Source: Dictyophora rubrovolvata
Lineage: Eukaryota; Basidiomycota; Agaricomycetes; Phallales; Phallaceae
DNA: 64,000 nt
Assembly (NCBI GenBank): GCA_029959195.1
Contig: CP114123.1
Span: 1,612,001-1,676,000 of the forward strand
Direction: 5' to 3'
Shown here: in pieces, positions 52,971 through 64,000 of the stretch
Layout: the number at the start of each line of letters is the position of its first letter
Position numbering within the stretch: the first letter of the stretch is position 1
Program-made: the position numbers and the translations under genes
The notes under the pieces: model-generated
The model's database searches: none
Seen by the model: only the letters and a program-made list of their open reading frames with translations
What the model was told of the DNA's origin: nothing

Positions 52971-54611
52971 TTGCTGGGGAACTGTAGTCTGTACCTGAAG
53001 CGCCAAAGCAACAACTGGAGAGTGCTGACGTAATCAACAAGCCGACAACCAGAACATAAGAGTGCAGCGCTGTTCTGTACCCTCTCGGTTCGCTGGCGTA
53101 CAACGTATGAAACTCTTCATAGAAATCGAATGGAAGTAAGATTCGCATACTCCGAATTCATGGTTAGTCATATGCCGATTTTCACCAGGGTCCCGCGCAC
53201 TAGTAAGCATGAAATCATTCTCCGGAACTGCAGCCAGGCTCGGTGCAACCACACTGCAGTTCTCACTCCCGCGCACGTCATACATAATAATAACTAACGA
53301 AAGTACTCCTGCCGTAAAAAAACGTGTGTCTTAAATAAGTTGACGTCAATAAATGTTTGTCTATAAACCTTTAGCTCGCAAATGGTTGAAAACACATCCG
53401 GCGAGTTGCATAATTGATTTCCATATACCGCATTTCTATGCTAGTAAATCAGGTGGGACAAAAAAACCCCATCATGCCAACGGATCGTTTTCGTTGGCGA
53501 CAAATGAGCCGGTTGGTCGTCCTGTGCATCCACCCTACATGGACATTGCAACATCTCGGCGTAGAAAAACCACCGGAGTTGCAAGTTCTAGGTACATTAC
53601 CAAAATAACTAGGGCCGAACGAATTTGTAAAATTTATAAAATATTTTTCTGAAGAATTAATCCATTTTTTTAAACAATTGTTTAAGAAAGGTTTTCAGGC
53701 CTTGTTTTTCCAAGGACTTTGTCCGAAGCCTAAAGGGTTTCCGGAGTCGATATATTTTGTCTAAGAATAAATAGCTCCATCTGTTTATTCCTCACGACAG
53801 AGAGATCAATGTGAATTGGTTACAGCATCTTTCAGATCAATTAAGTTAACAGGAGCAAGGGCCTCTGATTAAACGTCATTGTCACTATCGACATTTAATC
53901 CGGACAAAATATCGACTACTGTATAGGACTGTAATACAGATGACGACTGGGAAGCCAGGGAGCTTCCGACGTTAGAGCCAGACCAGCTGAGTACTAGTGA
54001 TGAACCAAGTTTGTTTTTTAGGATTCACGCTCATAAGATATTCAGCTATAGTTTTGTTACTAGCTAAGGAGGTGTAAAATTATTTTATTCGCGCGATCTG
54101 AAAGATATAGAACATGGGGATATCTAATGCTAAACACGGAAAACGGCATGTGCACTGCAATGTCTGGCAGCTGAACGAGCCACATGTAATTCGACAACGT
54201 TTCGATACACGGGCCAGAATTAAAAGCTCCAGTTCTTTATTCTTCGAGGCAACAGTTTCGAAAGGAGAGAAACTTTGGTGTAATATTAAATCATACACCG
54301 TTCTCCGTCGACAGGACAAATAGTAAAGACGGGAGAGACCCGCCGAAAAGCATGCTTTTCGACATCACGAAGCTGCTAGCTGCATGACTGGCCCTATCCA
54401 CAACTATTTGAACCCTTGATAACGGCTGACCTCGTTGGCCATGGAAAATACTTTTTCCTTCACGAAGTTCTGGCTGGCACAGTCTTTTCGATTACTGGAC
54501 GCATAATGATAGTTGTGCGAGGACGCAAAGTGGCAGGATGGATCCACAGACGCCCACAAGATCTCGTAACTGAACGCGTCACCTCCATCCTCCTCCACTC
54601 GCCATTGTACC
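52971..54611. other. 1.6 kb gap between the zinc-finger gene and RPT5
   Basis: Divergent upstream regions of two genes. Short frames on both strands (for example 53353-53652 and 54114-54323) show no family likeness and no splice-linked continuation. A 16 bp perfect palindrome (TTAAACAATTGTTTAA) lies at 53670-53685. No gene is supported. Confidence 0.5.
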
Positions 54612-56326
54612 ATGTCGTCGTCGGCTGAACCGCCTCCTCAACCGCCTACGGAATCAAAGGAGCCTGGAAGCTCTTCAGAAGCAGCACCAGGCACTTCACA
54701 GGCAGATGCCACAATGGATACCACGCCTGACCAGCCCGCTGAAGAAACCTGGGATGACATTCCGGAAGATGTTCTCAATTCATCTACAGACGACATCCTG
54801 ACTCGCGCACGGTTAATTGACAATGATATCAAAGCAAGTTTATCTTCGCAAAGATCGGTTTTGGATTATAGTACTCAATTCTTATGTCTTCAGGTAATGC
54901 GTTCCGAGACCTTACGATTGCAACATGAGCAAAGTACAATGAAGGAGAGGATTCGAGACAATGGCGAAAAGATCAAACAAAACAAAGTACTGCCATATCT
55001 TGTAGGAAATGTAGTTGAGGTATGTCTGCTTTTTGAAAGGGATCCGCAATAATTTCACTCACTAAAAACTCCGAAAAAAAAAACAGATTTTAGATGTAGA
55101 TCCGGAGGGTGAGGAGGATGGTGCAAACCAAGATTTAGATTCCATGCGCAAAGGCAAATGTGCCGTCATCAAGACGTCCACCCGTCAAACTGTCTTTCTT
55201 CCTCTCATCGGTCTAGTCCCTTCCGACAAGCTCAGGCCTGGTGATCTTATCGGTGTAAACAAAGATTCCTACCTCGTCCTTGATACCCTACCTGCCGAAT
55301 TTGATTCGCGAGTAAAAGCTATGGAAGTGGATGAACGACCGACGGAGACCTATATTGACATCGGTGGTCTTGATAAACAAATCGAAGAACTTGTCGAAGC
55401 TATAGTCCTTCCTATGGAACAAGCCGATAAGTTTAAGACTATTGGCATACGCCCTCCCAAGGGGGTGTTGATGTATGGGCCTCCAGGTAATGAAAATTTT
55501 TAAAAAAACATGTCGATTTTTTTGTCTTGAGAGAGAGTCGTTAACTCACTTCACACACCTTTCTAGGAACTGGGAAAACACTGTTAGCCCGAGCGTGTGC
55601 CGCACAGACTAAAGCTTGTTATCTCAAACTCGCCGGTCCTTCATTGGTGCAAATGTTCATTGGAGATGGTGCGAAACTCATTCGAGATGCGTTTGAACTT
55701 GCAAAAGAAAAAGCCCCGGCAATTATCTTTATCGACGAGCTGGATGCTATTGGTACCAAGCGATTTGATTCTGAGAAGAGTGGTGATCGCGAGGTACAAC
55801 GCACCATGTTGGAATTACTCAATCAATTAGATGGATTTAGTAGCGATGAACGGATCAAGGTAAAAAATCATAGCGATCAAGTTCTCCACCTCGTCCTTTT
55901 TTTTCATTTCTCAAATTCTACTTACAGGTCATCGCGGCCACCAACCGTATTGATATACTCGATCCCGCGTTGCTCCGTTCAGGTCGATTAGACCGAAAGA
56001 TCGAGTTTCCCTTACCCAATGAGACAGCCCGTGCCCGTATTCTTGAAATTCACAGTCGTAAGATGGCTGTTGGGCCAGATATTAACTTTGAAGAAATTGC
56101 TCGTAGTACGGATGAATTTAATGGTGCACAATTAAAAGCAGTATGTGTGGAAGCAGGGATGATCGCATTACGGGAGGGGGCTAAGCAATTGACACATGAA
56201 CATTTCCATAGTGGAATTGCGGAAGGTATGATTTCTCTTTTTCCGGCGTACGGTCTTTTTTTTTTCCTAACCACCATATTTTTAGTTCAAGCAAAGAAGA
56301 AGAATGACCTCATGTATTTCGCTTAA
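54612..56326 (+). CDS. RPT5: 26S proteasome regulatory ATPase Rpt5 (PSMC3)
   Basis: Six exons: 54612-54833, 54894-55019, 55087-55486, 55567-55859, 55928-56225 and 56286-56326 (1380 nt, 459 residues; human PSMC3 is 439). The N-terminal coiled coil includes [15 protein letters not shown]. The OB domain reads [20 protein letters not shown]. The AAA domain has Walker A YGPPGTGKT, Walker [12 protein letters not shown], and arginine-finger and sensor region [20 protein letters not shown]. The end reads [13 protein letters not shown], carrying the Rpt HbYX-type hydrophobic-Tyr tail. Intron 1 (54834-54893) is GC-AG with donor gcaagt. It is 60 nt, stop-free and in frame. I remove it because the family joins DNDIK directly to VMRSE. 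Confidence 0.95.
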
Positions 56327-58195
56327 CAGTGCCTCTTGTTGTTGTTGTTGTTTTTAGATTATCCTGGTCTTTATTTCATCCTCATTTTGTCAATTTTCAT
56401 CTCATTTTCATCCCACGTTGCTTATATTTTGCTTGCCTGGATGAATGGTCTGGCCGAGTGAACAATATAGCAAGAAGACTTGCTTCGACTTGTATGTAAT
56501 TATCCCGGCCAATTCATAATTGCGAACTCACGAGTGCCTGTTAAAAAAAAACCTAACCTATTCATGAGTCTTCTTTGAGCCCGACAAACGCAGAACATGC
56601 TATCCAATAGAAGCAAGAGTTTATTAGCTTCCGGGCTCCTATGTTCGTCTATTTTCAATCGAGAGTCATTTTTCTTGCACGCCGTCGTGCTCAGTACTTC
56701 ATTTAATGAATAAGGATTTTGAGAGAGGTGAGCAGACGCCAACACGAGGACATCCCATGTTCACGATCACATACCATAACGAGTCTATGAATTCTTGCCG
56801 TGAAGGTACCAATATGACTAAAAAAAATATAAGGGACATCTCTTTTTACAAAGGAAATTTTTCTTACTTACAGGGGCGAGGATTTTTTTAAGAACGGTAT
56901 CATATTTCATTCAGTCTTGTTGCCCTGGCTTCATAACCCTGTTTGTGCATCGATCATATGATGTATTGAATTTAACCCCGGGCAAGCATCGAGGATATCT
57001 AAATTCTAATCTACTGTTTACAGATGTTTTTTTTTGGCTCGGGGGGGAAGGGGTACGTAGACCGAGATGATGAACGGCCCCAAATTAAGCTAGGAGATTC
57101 TGTATGTTGGTCAAATGAAATGTGTTTCCTTATGTTTATTCCTTACACTTTTGCAACGTAATTTTGTATGTATGTATTTACTGTGTGCATCATGGCCTGC
57201 ATACATAGCAAACACAGCTACTAGCACTTGCCACTGATCCACACCTCCCTGCCGAACACAGCATATGTAAGCACGAGAAGAAAGGTGATATATTTAGTGT
57301 CGCTTTGAAAAAAAAAAAAGAGAGAAATGGCGAGATTATTTGGTCAGGTAAGAGTTTAGGCATGCAACCGGCTTCGCTGGCAGTAAAGTGACATGCCGGG
57401 CTGTGCTATCTGACGGCATTATTTTCGGAGAAGTTTTGCTGATTTCGGGACCTGCACATTTTTGCCTAATTTGGTGGGCGATCCAAAGATGATCGAAATC
57501 GAGGTCTTTACGACGATGCAGTCATAATGGATTAGTAAGCGAATATAAGTCCACGCCGAAGTATAAGTCAAAAGTCAAAAGCACGTTGGTATCAAGTTGG
57601 TATGTATCTGGTATGTAGGGATTTGGGTGTACATACACCGCGGCGCGTCAAGCTGTAATTTATATTTATACTGATATATACTGTTATTTCCGGTGGTTGA
57701 AGTGGTAATGAAAGGCAGTTATTGGCTAACGATGCTGAATGAAGGGAGTTAGCGATCCGACAGAGGCGGGGTGGATTCACGGCCTTCAAGACCGACGACT
57801 AGTACGAGGCCGAGCCTGTATATGTCAGTAATTGTAATTAGCTATAATTAGTAATTAGATCCTACTATAAGTGGCCAATTCCGTTATGACCGCCAAAAGA
57901 AATGACACAGCTGAAAGGATCGCTCATGCCGACGGGGACGAGACTGATGTTTTTCCAGCTTGAGAGTACCTACTCCTGGCATTGCGTTGACTTGAAAAAA
58001 GGTCAAGTCATCGCTAAAGCTGCGACGTTGACACAGCAAACAGAAGTGGAATGTGGAATGTCTAACGCTGCCGTTTTGAGAGAGTCGTCCGATGATGACC
58101 ATCGGAGGTCAAATGATTGCAAGCCTAAAGAGAGGGAAGGAAATTTTAGATTGATAAGTTATGGTTATCTAACAAAAGGATTATCTTCACCCTGC

Positions 58196-58644
58196 TGATC
58201 CCCTGAAGAGACGCCTGACTGATGAGCGGGGGTTCCATATGGTATCGACAGCTGGCCACTAGAGGTTTCGGAGGGTCTAGAGTCCGAAATGCCCATTGAC
58301 CGATATTTACCACCCTGCACGAGATGGTTCATCGGACTCCTAACGTCTCGGACTTGCTTGATTGTTGCACGCAAGCATTATTTTAAACAGGTCGGAAAAA
58401 GTCTAAGATCTTTGGAAGAATGTGCGCATGTTTATGTTTGATATGAAGCAACTCAGACTACAATGTATATAATACGTGCAATGGTTTCTGTGGTGACTGG
58501 TAGGCTACGCACAAGACCGGAACCGGCACCGTGACGACTTCCGTTTCTGGACTGCCGCCGGATCCAAACCCAAATTAATATAAAAGAGCTCAGCACACCG
58601 AAGCCAGCTTTTCTCCCTAAAGCATACACAGTTATGTGCATTGA
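58196..58644 (-). CDS. Possible small membrane-protein gene fragment, unrecognised
   Basis: On the minus strand an ATG at about 58644 (MHITVYALGRKAG) opens a frame with one hydrophobic segment (FGVLSSFILIWVWI) and a basic flank. Further on, a different frame gives a hydrophilic tail (RSMGISDSRPSETSSGQLSI to GEDNPFVR, stop near 58196) that looks like a cytosolic tail. A gt...ag intron could join them, but I could not fix it. No family is recognised. This may be chance or a remnant. Confidence 0.2.
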
Positions 58645-58858
58645 ATTGAACCCCTGAAGGAAGGAGCTCGTTTGCAGTTTGAACACACAGTTTTGAATGA
58701 ATTGATATAATAAGAATATGGCGTGTTGGGATTTCCCTGGGCCCTCGTTGCCACCAGTATGCTCAATTGCAAGTATGTACAATAGAATTCTAAAAGAAAA
58801 AGGGTAAGAAGGGTAAGAGGGTTGACCGGAGGCCAAAGCTCAAGGGTCCTTCGGTGAA

Positions 58859-58887
58859 GGGGAAGGGGAAGGGGAAGGGGTGAGGGG
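58859..58887 (+). repeat. G-rich hexamer repeat, G-quadruplex-type
   Basis: Five runs of GGGG are spaced by AA, AA, AA and TGA. This fits the standard pattern for an intramolecular G-quadruplex with very short loops. It lies in the gap between RPT5 and the septin-like gene. Confidence 0.7.
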
Positions 58888-59612
58888 CATGTGCGCATCC
58901 GCAAAGTCTGCGCTAATCAGCTTGCAAAGGCGAGAGAATCAGGCTACGAATTACATAGTCCGTTTTGATCAGGGAAAACATATTACCAATTGCAATTGCA
59001 ATTGCCAATCACGCACTGTATTACCGTAGACCAGGATCAGAATGCACTGAATCTCTCAAACCGCAAGATGATATGTATGGAGCAATTTGAAAAGACTTGC
59101 CGTTTCTCCAGTTTTGAATTGCACTCTTTCCTTGCTTAATTTTGAGGGCAGTCATATACATTGATTGTTACATAAAATGAATCCGGAAATTGACTCTAAA
59201 GGGAAATCCGGCATAAAATGGGTGTCAGTTGGTTGTGAAAAATCCCACTAAGCAACCTGTGCTCTCTGCTCTGCGGTGCATCAACCTCACAGAGAGGATG
59301 GTGATGATGAGTGTTTGTCTGCCTGCGGATCAGGGCAGGTGCACAGCACAGAGGGGGGAGAGCACACACACACAGACAGAGGGAGAAAAAACACTAGCGC
59401 TGAAACAACTAACGGAGACGGAGCCAGGAAAGTCGGAGGGAAAATAATTCCGGTGAATTAATTATCGAAATTTGCGGTGTTTTTCCAAAAAATAAAAATA
59501 ATCAAATATTTTCTGTTGTCAAAATAAATAATAATTGAATAAGCTCTGTTCCCCCGGGAACCTCTCATCTCCGAAATAAGAGTCCCGTCTCCTTTGGATC
59601 GTTTACATTTGT

Positions 59613-59744
59613 CCTTTCAACCTTCCTTTCCTCCTCCTCCTCCTCCTCCTCCTCTTCCTCTTCCCCCTCGTCCTTTTTCTCTTTATCTTTTTCTTTTTTC
59701 TCTTTCTCCATTTCTTTCCTTTCTCCAAAAAACCTTTCCCCCCC
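59613..59744 (+). promoter_or_regulatory. Long pyrimidine tract upstream of the septin-like gene
   Basis: Nearly unbroken C/T sequence, with an internal CCT repeat, runs up to the ATG at 59745. Such CT-rich blocks are common just upstream of transcription starts in filamentous fungi. The composition is seen; the promoter role is inferred. Confidence 0.55.
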
Positions 59745-60658
59745 ATGAACGGACCTGGCGTAATACGTCCGCGACAACGACCTCGCAACCCCGCCGTTCC
59801 ATCTTACACTATTATTGCCGTCGGCCAACGCTGCGTCGGAAAATCATCTCTCCTCCGTCTCCTCTTAGACACATTGCCTCTTTCTCCACATGCAACTCAT
59901 GACCAGCTACGCTCGGTTGCCAACTTTGTTTCCTCCCCAAATTCATTCTGTGAATGCCACCTCGAAGTTTTATGGCATAATGAACGTCTATTATTACATC
60001 TCATCGACACACCTCCATTGACTGGAGATGACACCCTAGCAGAGATTATTTCCGTCGTAGAAGAACGATATATTCGTGGCGCACAGTCAGACACCACCGA
60101 CGAGGGCGATTCAACCCTCGGCGAGTCCCATGTTCATCTCTGTCTCTACCTCCTAGATGCCCTCCAACCCGACTTCCTCCATGATATCAGCACTATCGGT
60201 CGTCTGTCCGTCCGAGTCAATGTTCTTCCAATATTGGCACGCTCAGATGTCCTAACGCTCAACGGGTGAGTTTCCTCGTCCTATTTTTCTTCCGATTAAT
60301 TCCATTCAACATTTGATTAATTGTTTTATGTGCCCCCCCCCCCCACCCCTTCGTTGTTTATAGACTAATAAACTTCAAACAATCCATACGTGCTCGACTT
60401 GCCGATGCCGGCCTGGGTTTTGGTATCTTCGATAAACAGGGAGAGGCTGGCGTCATTCCAGCCCGTCACACGGCTATTGAATCCCCTCGGAGTCTGCCTC
60501 TCCTTCCTTACGCTATTTTCACTCCAGAACATTCCAAGTTAGCTTATGAACCCATATTAAACTTATGGATGGACAAGCTAGATAAACGCCGCGCCGAATG
60601 GCAACAATCCGATACCAAAATGGATGTCGACCGCAAGATCGACGAGCCATCATCTGTC

Positions 60659-60689
<31 letters not shown>

Positions 60690-63600
60690 CTTCAATATCG
60701 GTGGGTAGACATTTAACCAAGCCTGCTTCACCTAGAGATAGCAGTTCGCCCGCGCCGGCGAGCGAACAGGACTCAGCCCACAAGTCCGATCACGATGCAG
60801 TCACGCAAGCCAACAACGGCACTACTAATAACCCGTCTACGTTTTCCACCATATCCGCTCTCACGGACGACAAGTCCCATCCCCGAACGCCGCCAATCTC
60901 AGATTCACCAGCCTCAGCTCAATCCTCTTCACCGCAATCTTCGGCACTGAAAGATAAATTTGGCACCGTCCGGATAAAGTCGGACTCAAGTCAGCAGGCT
61001 CCAAATGCCGAGGACAGTGCTGCAACTGCACATATCGAAGCCGAAGTTCAAAATGCAGATAATTCCGGTAGGACTAAAACTACTGTTACTATTACGGATC
61101 GACCTTTATCAGCCTCCTCGCCTCAAAATGGGCCACATTCAGATGTCAAAATTTCTCCGTCGATTAACACCATTCCCCTTGATCCTAAAATTTCATCATC
61201 ATCAACAACACCAACAGCAGCAACAGCAACTTCGGAGGTACCATGTTTTAAGGAACAAAAGAACCAAAATCCTAAATGCGATGCTGACCCTCAGAACATC
61301 ACCGTGCCTAGCGTGTCAAATGATTCAGAATTGGCCATGGAGAAGTTCGTCCGGATTATGCGTTGGGGAATGCTGGATTGCATCGACAATCGTCAGTCGG
61401 ATTTCGTCCGTTTGCGAGATGAAATAATGTCGTGGCGTAAAGTACTTGGGATATTTCTTTACGTCAACCTATCTTAACGTACTTACATCTGGTCCCCAGG
61501 AATTGAAAGCCTATACACGGGATTATCTGTATAGCCGCTTCAAAGACGATTCTTTTTCACGGCTGGCTGCTCAAGCGCAACAACAGCATCCCCATCAACG
61601 TGATCCCCCGCCTTCATCGGGGCCTCTTCCTCCTCCGTCTCGACATTACATCGTTTCCTGTGACACTGCCTATCGTGTCTCACCACCACCCCCACCACCA
61701 CCTTCCTCTTTTCAACATGGCCATGGCCTTCGCGACAGGTCTACTTCCCCCGACCCTGCTGCTGCAGAGCGCGACCGACCTAGCATGTCACGTTCCATAC
61801 CGCCGTATTCGGGCGTCCGTGATCATGATTCCCACGTTTATGAACGCGACAGAGACTTTGGCCATCGTTATCCATATCACGACCGCCCCAGAGATAAATA
61901 TCTTTCTCCCGAAAGAGAAAAAGATTATCACGCCCCTCCTCCGCCTCCTCACCCTCACCCCCACCTATCGCCCCATGCCGCAACAGCCGTGCCTTTGTCC
62001 AACGAGCGGAAACATTCAGTCTCGAATGGCGATCGAGATCGTGATAGACCCAAGTATCGTGACCCCACTAAACACGATCATGATTGGGAGGAGCAGCAGC
62101 GCCACCATCCAGTTCTCCCGTCAATCGACCGAGGAGACAGGTATTCTCGTGTCTCACCTATCACGCACGCACCTCCTTCACTACCCCCTCACTGCCATCC
62201 TGGTCCTTATCCACCGCAATATGGTTCTGATCATATTAATCGCGACAAGGAGCATTTTGAGCGTGACAGAGGAAGGGAAAAAATTTCACCGTCTATTCGG
62301 GGACGCGATATCATCACACCGCCATTGCAGCGTTCTGGGTCTCCTGGCGCATCGGGGACTCCTATCGGAATGCCCACGGGTCAGCACGGGCAAATCTATG
62401 GGTCTAATGTGGTGAATCCGAGCGTCAGCCCGACTATAGCTTCTGGTGGTAAGCAATTAGATGTCCATTCGTTGCTGAACCACAATAGTCATCATGGTGC
62501 GTATTACGAAATCTGACCGTTTTTTTTTCTTCTAACCGACATTTCAGGTGCTGTCCCAGGCATGATTTCTCAAGGCTTGGAGAAGGAATGGGAACGTAGG
62601 GAGAGGGAGCGCGAGCTTTCACCTAATTCTGCTACACTGCAGTCTTCTGGGGTGTCCCTCGGTATGCCGATATCCAATATGCCAATGTCATCAGGACCGC
62701 AAGCGGGCAGTGTTGTTGGCCCCGCTGGTTCAGCTAACAATGTTTCTCCTGCCGTACCCAATGTCGGATCTAATTCCATCGGAAGAAAAAGAAAAATTAC
62801 CATGGCTTGCAATTTTTGTCGTTGTGAGTGTCAATTCAGAATATTTTTTGGGGGGGAGGGAGTAGAAACATATTTATCGCTGATTATTATTTTTCTTTAG
62901 CTCGTAAACTTAAATGTGATGGTCTAAAACCAGCTTGTGGACAATGTACCAAGAGGGGGAACACCTGCGATTACCAGCAGCATGCTGTTGCCCAACAGGG
63001 TCCTTCTGGTGTCCCAAAGGACGCACCTATGAGTTCTTCTTCCCAGTCGCGAGATCACCTCGCAGGTCAACCAAGCGCGATTCTGCCTCCCACGCATGTA
63101 AGCGGCGGTCAACTGACCTCTCCTGGCTTGCGACATAGGGAACGGGGGTACGGGCGCGAAATGGAGAGAGACAGGGATGGTTCGTATTATCATTCAGGTC
63201 GACCTTATTCGCCGCCACCACAACAGCAACAGCAACAACAAGGAGGTCCCGGTCAGTCTCACGCTCATGCTTACCCTCAACAGGGTTATTCCTCTTCCTC
63301 CAATTATCCTCGTATTAGAGAAGGCTCTCCCCAGTCCCAACACCACGTCAACGCTCACGGTGCTACACATACTTGGCGGTATACGTCTCAGTCTCACGCT
63401 CAAGCTCATGCAGCCGCTACTAGAGATTCTGACGTGGACGAACTCATAGAAGACCTTTCTGAGCACGAAGAAAGAAACTCTGACATGCGTTCACGCGGTA
63501 TGAAATCCAGCAGTCATCGAGATTTCGCAACGCATGTAGTTTATGAACAGACTAATGGACCAGGTGGCATGAATTCAACTTCTGCAAATGGGCGTGGACG

Positions 63601-63944
63601 CGTCAGCGTTGATATGCTTATTGTCGAAGCTCTTGGTGAGGGAAGTTCATCTAACGGACCTTTAGAAGACGATAATAGGACTGGACCTGCTGCTATTGGT
63701 GCAAACGGAGGCCGAAATAGGGACGGAGTGAAAGACTCTGAGAAGGGACAACAGCATGTCAGCCAACCTCCAAATCAGGCTCAGCCACCTTCTTCTGGTC
63801 AAGGCGGACATTACGAATCTGGAAGTTGGTATGAAATGAGTGTGGGGGTTATCGATGTCGGGAGTGAAGGCGACAAGAAGAAACGGCTGAACAGACAAAG
63901 TGCCAATTATGGAAGCAAAGCTGTTGCATGCGTACATTGTCGAG
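59745..63944 (+). CDS. Septin-type GTPase domain fused to Zn2Cys6 cluster(s), 3' end outside window
   Basis: Five exons: 59745-60265, 60364-61441, 61500-62496, 62548-62823 and 62901-63944, then a gtaagc donor. About 1305 residues are visible in one frame. Residues 1-260 resemble a septin GTPase: P-loop GQRCVGKSS (27-35), DTPPL, and LPILARSD (G4, 161-168). A Ser-rich insert (about 275-499) precedes the septin-like C-terminal block MRWGMLDC and DFVRLRDEI (about 505-530), then LKAYTRDYLYSRF. The same exon runs on into Pro/His/Arg/Asp-rich sequence. A Zn2Cys6 cluster spans about 950-980 (CNFC, KC, AC, QC and TC cysteines). A second begins at about 1300 (ACVHCR). If real, this is a septin-transcription-factor fusion. 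Two overlapping genes are the alternative. Confidence 0.7.
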
Positions 63945-64000
63945 GTAAGCCAAATATCTAAATTGAAAAATAATATAAAAATTGTTAATATTGGTTTTGT

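Follow-up and report, generated by a model that had tools for sequence, protein, structure and literature searches.

Gene structure and domain content

The stretch analysed here (64,000 nucleotides from Dictyophora rubrovolvata contig CP114123.1, hereafter the window; C7:1612001-1676000, C7 numbers being contig coordinates) carries near its end a gene whose predicted product combines a septin-type GTPase domain with two Zn2Cys6 clusters, referred to below as the fusion gene. The gene runs beyond the window end and the next 14 kb of C7 were included in the analysis; the genome searched amounts to 28.24 Mb in 11 contigs. Six exons, five in the window (59745-63944) and one outside (C7:1676034-1676926), are joined in frame through introns of 98, 58, 51, 77 and 89 nt, all five of the GT..AG type, and the predicted protein of 1,602 residues ends with a stop codon at C7:1676926. 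The ends proposed for the five window exons by an earlier sequence-only reading were recovered to the base (table 1), and its statement that all junctions keep the frame also held.

A Pfam search of the predicted protein at E<=1 retrieved two families and no other: PF00735 (Septin; E 8.9e-21, 74.8 bits versus a cut-off of 26.2) and PF00172 (Zn_clus; E 2e-18, 66.7 bits versus a cut-off of 21), each in two stretches. At the exon level, PF00735 matched exon 1 (C7:1671805-1672263, i.e. window 59805-60263, E 4.8e-10) and PF00172 matched exon 5 (C7:1674903-1674980) and exon 6 (C7:1676036-1676116). When residues 1-570 were compared with the PDB using phmmer, 43 distinct sequences were listed at E<=0.1 (best 4.6e-11), every one of them bearing a septin name (Septin-n, CDC3/10/11/12, SHS1). 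The P-loop, GQRCVGKS, conforms to GxxxxGK[S/T], and a septin unique element is present, residues 506-553 being the best stretch against CDC11 (5ar1). We read the two PF00735 stretches as one septin domain that would be split by a low-complexity insert.

Canonical septins display DxxG (DTPG) as G3 motif and AKxD as G4 motif. The fusion protein has DTPP where Septin-9 and CDC10 have DTPG in the alignment, and ARSD at the G4 position, with the Asp retained and the Lys changed to Arg; a septin paralogue described below has SRAD there. Because its G3 departs from DTPG, the GTPase part is, by its motifs, a divergent septin-domain protein and not a canonical septin. The name 'septin' given by the sequence-only reading thus stands for the domain, in view of the PF00735 and PDB matches, and is too broad when left unqualified, as both motifs are altered. 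On the usual meaning of these motifs, catalysis appears doubtful because of DTPP and ARSD, although the P-loop and the septin unique element are kept, and nucleotide binding appears possible.

Two complete Zn2Cys6 clusters were found, at residues 953-980 and 1301-1328 (CNFCRSRKLKCDGLKPACGQCTKRGNTC and CVHCRARKTRCDAVRPACGNCARRSLAC). An intron interrupts each of them, and the second one spans the window end. Both are spaced C-X2-C-X6-C-X6-C-X2-C-X6-C, in agreement with the family pattern C-X2-C-X6-C-X5-12-C-X2-C-X6-8-C. The complete cluster announced by the sequence-only reading was therefore present, and its count of a single cluster has to be raised to two. A duplication of the cluster inside the fusion gene, suggested by the like positions of the two introns, was considered and dropped, since other zinc-cluster loci share that intron position. 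In five pattern-matched loci among the seven others that were fetched (L016, L017, L018, L019 and L020), inspection by eye showed an intron ending no more than about three residues ahead of the cluster's RK; judging from these sequences, such a placement seems ancient and common to them.

Table 1. Features of the fusion gene and its leader (window positions unless prefixed C7).
Feature	Position	Strand	Description
CT-rich leader	59600..59744	+	directly 5' of the first in-frame ATG, read from the sequence
Exon 1	59745..60265	+	starts MNGPGV; GQRCVGKS (G1), DTPP (G3 position), VNVLPILARSD (G4 position)
Intron 1	60266..60363	+	98 nt, GTGAGT..TAG, without the branch motif required by the intron scans
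Exon 2	60364..61441	+	end of G domain, Ser-rich low-complexity insert of ~240 residues, then septin unique element WGMLDCIDNRQSDFVRLRDE
Intron 2	61442..61499	+	58 nt, phase 0; position matches last intron of septin paralogue
Exon 3 (joining exon)	61500..62496	+	ELKAYTRDYLYSRF = septin C-terminus; then ~310 residues in the same frame, largely Pro/His/Arg-rich
Intron 3	62497..62547	+	51 nt, GTGCGT..CTAAC..CAG
Exon 4	62548..62823	+	linker, then the basic stretch GRKRK and the initial part of zinc cluster 1 (CNFCR)
Intron 4	62824..62900	+	77 nt, phase 1, within zinc cluster 1
Exon 5	62901..63944	+	remainder of zinc cluster 1 (SRKLKCDGLKPACGQCTKRGNTC), then a long linker, the KKKR stretch and the opening part of zinc cluster 2 (CVHCR)
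Intron 5 (start)	63945..64000	+	89 nt in all, extends to C7:1676033
Exon 6	C7:1676034-1676926	+	outside the window; finishes zinc cluster 2, gene end

Septin paralogue and surroundings of the gene

A second divergent septin gene (780 aa) was detected outside the window on the opposite strand (C7:1686935-1684352), convergent with the fusion gene and 7.4 kb downstream of its end. In a pairwise BLAST, this paralogue aligned with the septin part of the fusion protein in three blocks (E 2e-11, 8e-11 and 8e-8); at the septin unique element, 53 residues align with 43% identity. One further block (E 0.14) seems to be a chance match. The two proteins have in common a divergent septin domain, long low-complexity inserts, the replacement of Lys by Arg at G4 and an intron position: in the alignment, an intron of the paralogue lies directly before SLKATTKDVLYERF and intron 2 of the fusion gene directly before ELKAYTRDYLYSRF. 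This matching intron provides homology support for the splice into exon 3. The paralogue differs by a retained DTPG, an N-terminal extension and an end located 26 residues after LYERF, and no PF00172 match was found inside it among the matches listed. Other septin genes are organized otherwise at the intron 2 site, as two of them (L012 and L013) have no intron there and in a third (L011) the exon seems to stop some four residues short of it. When at least 24 septin and at least 17 Zn_clus exon matches listed for the genome were compared, only the fusion gene held both in one gene; outside it, the Zn_clus match nearest to a septin match, among those listed, was about 19 kb away from it (C7:1705148).

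The CT-rich leader may act as promoter or 5' untranslated region. The fusion gene is flanked by window 56327-59744 (3.4 kb) and C7:1676927-1684351 (7.4 kb), two stretches in which no stop-to-stop open reading frame (ORF) longer than 136 aa was observed and which are possibly large regulatory regions. The nearest upstream gene seen consists of AAA-type ATPase exons on the forward strand (window 54570-56326), which we take to belong to a 26S proteasome regulatory subunit. Within the gene, an alternative donor for intron 3 (GTAAGC at 62449) would give an intron of 99 nt (62449-62547) with loss of 16 residues and the frame kept.

One gene or two

The connection between the two types of domain is made by exon 3. 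This exon opens with the septin C-terminal element and contains no stop over 997 bases, which reproduces the septin-like end described by the sequence-only reading, followed by a stop-free arm of nearly 1 kb spliced to the zinc cluster. None of 5000 dinucleotide shuffles left the frame open over 61500-62496, and the same was true for 61560-62496 (0/5000). The gene's own frame had the highest codon score of all six in 27 of the 29 overlapping windows (150 nt) placed on exon 3, as well as in four of five on exon 4; the codon table was derived from 2,928 codons of seven long, putatively coding stop-to-stop ORFs of the 64-kb window. A strict intron scan of 61500-62560 returned three candidates, each with a length divisible by three and with its end at 62547 or 62559, beside the zinc-cluster exon; a relaxed scan returned eight, six of which keep the frame. 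These scans require a branch motif and are not exhaustive. A second forward frame is also open across the exon for 302 codons (window 61507-62415), which is probably owing to exon composition.

Overall, a fusion of the septin-type domain and the Zn2Cys6 clusters in a single gene, known here from a genomic gene model, appears highly probable, and we hold with only slightly less assurance that one gene encoding a protein of approximately 1,602 residues, with a divergent septin-type G domain at the N-terminus, a long linker of low complexity and two Zn2Cys6 clusters, is the best explanation as a whole. Several observations weigh against it. The sub-stretch 61560-61785 remained open in 1497 of 5000 dinucleotide shuffles, hence its openness says little, and this figure, together with the second open frame, indicates that composition favours openness. 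The codon score is low (1.4-3.6) across 62130-62490; two of the eight introns of the relaxed scan, with a common donor at 62501, break the frame; and an undetected intron within exon 3 is possible, since intron 1 is itself without the branch motif demanded by the scans. The alignment with the paralogue at intron 2 requires a one-residue gap just before the intron. At the protein level, no match to PF04082 was obtained (Pfam, E<=1), and GTP hydrolysis may be lost given the altered G3 and G4. Finally, relatives sought in prokaryotic and viral contig collections amounted to 30 and 11 pattern matches, none of which was confirmed, a result uninformative on other fungi.

Could the same locus produce two proteins? 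Splicing of intron 3 (51 nt) would yield the fusion, and its retention a septin-only protein ending at TGA 62514-62516. This stop is the sole one between two open stretches of one frame and it falls within the intron, as such an isoform pair would have it. Stops are nevertheless frequent in fungal introns and the sequence gives no sign of retention, so that we judge this pair unlikely. Two abutting genes, namely a septin-like gene terminated by an overlooked splice or 3' end, followed by a Zn2Cys6 gene with its start at an internal ATG (e.g. 61786), would fit the uninformative openness of 61560-61785, the paralogue protein ending shortly past LYERF and the frame-breaking introns with donor 62501. 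Such an arrangement is nonetheless quite improbable, as the first in-frame stop is met only at 62514, no out-of-frame intron appeared in the strict scan, the in-frame codon score was highest in all eight windows starting from 61560 to 61770, and PoZCP55, a comparable protein of another mushroom, is described as the product of a single gene in the parts of its survey covered here. We consider it just as improbable that the fusion protein is produced with a septin part that has lost its function and is decaying: the departures at G3 and G4 could be seen as signs of decay, yet both the P-loop and the unique element persist, with a strong profile match, the Arg at G4 also occurs in the paralogue and is thus not peculiar to the fusion gene, and the same combination is reported in Pleurotus. 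The proposal of one open gene joining both domain types is accordingly supported by the sequence, by the paralogue's splice site and by PoZCP55.

Putative function

The fusion protein is most likely a DNA-binding regulator, in which the septin-like domain would serve dimerisation or tethering. From its sequence we expect it to bind DNA with the two clusters of a single chain and to use the septin-like domain for interactions, because G3 and G4 are altered, the P-loop and unique element are kept and no PF04082 match was obtained. As a possible mechanism, which we put forward tentatively, the two Zn2Cys6 clusters of one chain would contact two DNA half-sites in a sequence-specific manner, and the septin-like domain would provide nucleotide-dependent dimerisation or would tether the protein to septin assemblies until its release. 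We infer that the gene is transcribed as a single unit in this species and that its product binds DNA, enters the nucleus, and is subject to GTP control and tethering. A more specific version, in which a septin-tethered transcription factor is held out of the nucleus at septa or hyphal tips and freed by septin disassembly or a nucleotide switch, seems doubtful; if true, it would connect the cytoskeleton of cell division directly with transcription. More generally, a septin-family GTPase domain in a DNA-binding protein could link cell shape or septation with gene expression.

Comparison with known proteins

The septins of solved structure (Septin-9, CDC10, CDC11 and others) are alignable with the fusion protein over the G domain and the septin unique element, and the latter differs from them by its altered G3 and G4, its large insert and its attached DNA-binding clusters. 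With Zn2Cys6 proteins it shares canonical six-cysteine clusters and nearby basic stretches; it differs in having two clusters per chain that are not N-terminal, no PF04082 match and a septin domain. Tpc1, a Zn2Cys6 regulator of Magnaporthe, is required for normal septin rings (PMC5542705), a case showing only that regulators of this type can act in one pathway with septins.

The papers cited here were covered in part, and what follows refers to those parts. The sequence-only reading stated that no described protein combines septin and Zn2Cys6 domains, which is contradicted by PoZCP55 of Pleurotus ostreatus, reported to contain PF00735 and two C-terminal zinc clusters (PMC7295025). This protein forms a separate clade among the 66 zinc cluster proteins of that fungus, 43 of which have PF04082, and is described with 'three septin domains' (PMC7295025); the sections covered give no function for it. 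In that survey, mapped RNA-seq reads were used to correct gene structures, only PoZCP14 is named as unexpressed, and proteins range from 195 to 1,386 aa (PMC7295025). No septin and zinc cluster protein besides PoZCP55 emerged from the literature searched, outside of which lie most subscription papers, and others may exist: the parts covered of PMC5415576, PMC11238149, PMC6323724, PMC4624876, PMC5542705 and PMC11878562 mention no second one, the word 'zinc' was not found in those of the septin papers PMC11238149 and PMC6323724, and one huge dinoflagellate septin has other extra domains (PMC11238149).

Compared by description, PoZCP55 and the fusion gene model share a septin domain and two zinc clusters in one protein. 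The two are not the same record, since 1,602 aa exceeds the survey maximum of 1,386 aa. Both clusters of PoZCP55 are C-terminal, whereas the fusion protein has cluster 1 in its middle third and only cluster 2 in its last third; three septin domains are reported for the former versus two Pfam stretches read as one domain in the latter, and the three are probably one domain split by inserts, as in the fusion protein. From this shared make-up, a common origin of both genes seems likely. The fusion gene is thus a further example of an unusual and little-studied combination, and not a new type, for which it provides exact exon ends, the second of its two clusters, the departures in the GTPase motifs and a septin-only paralogue close by, details that ease the design of a knock-out or localisation test.
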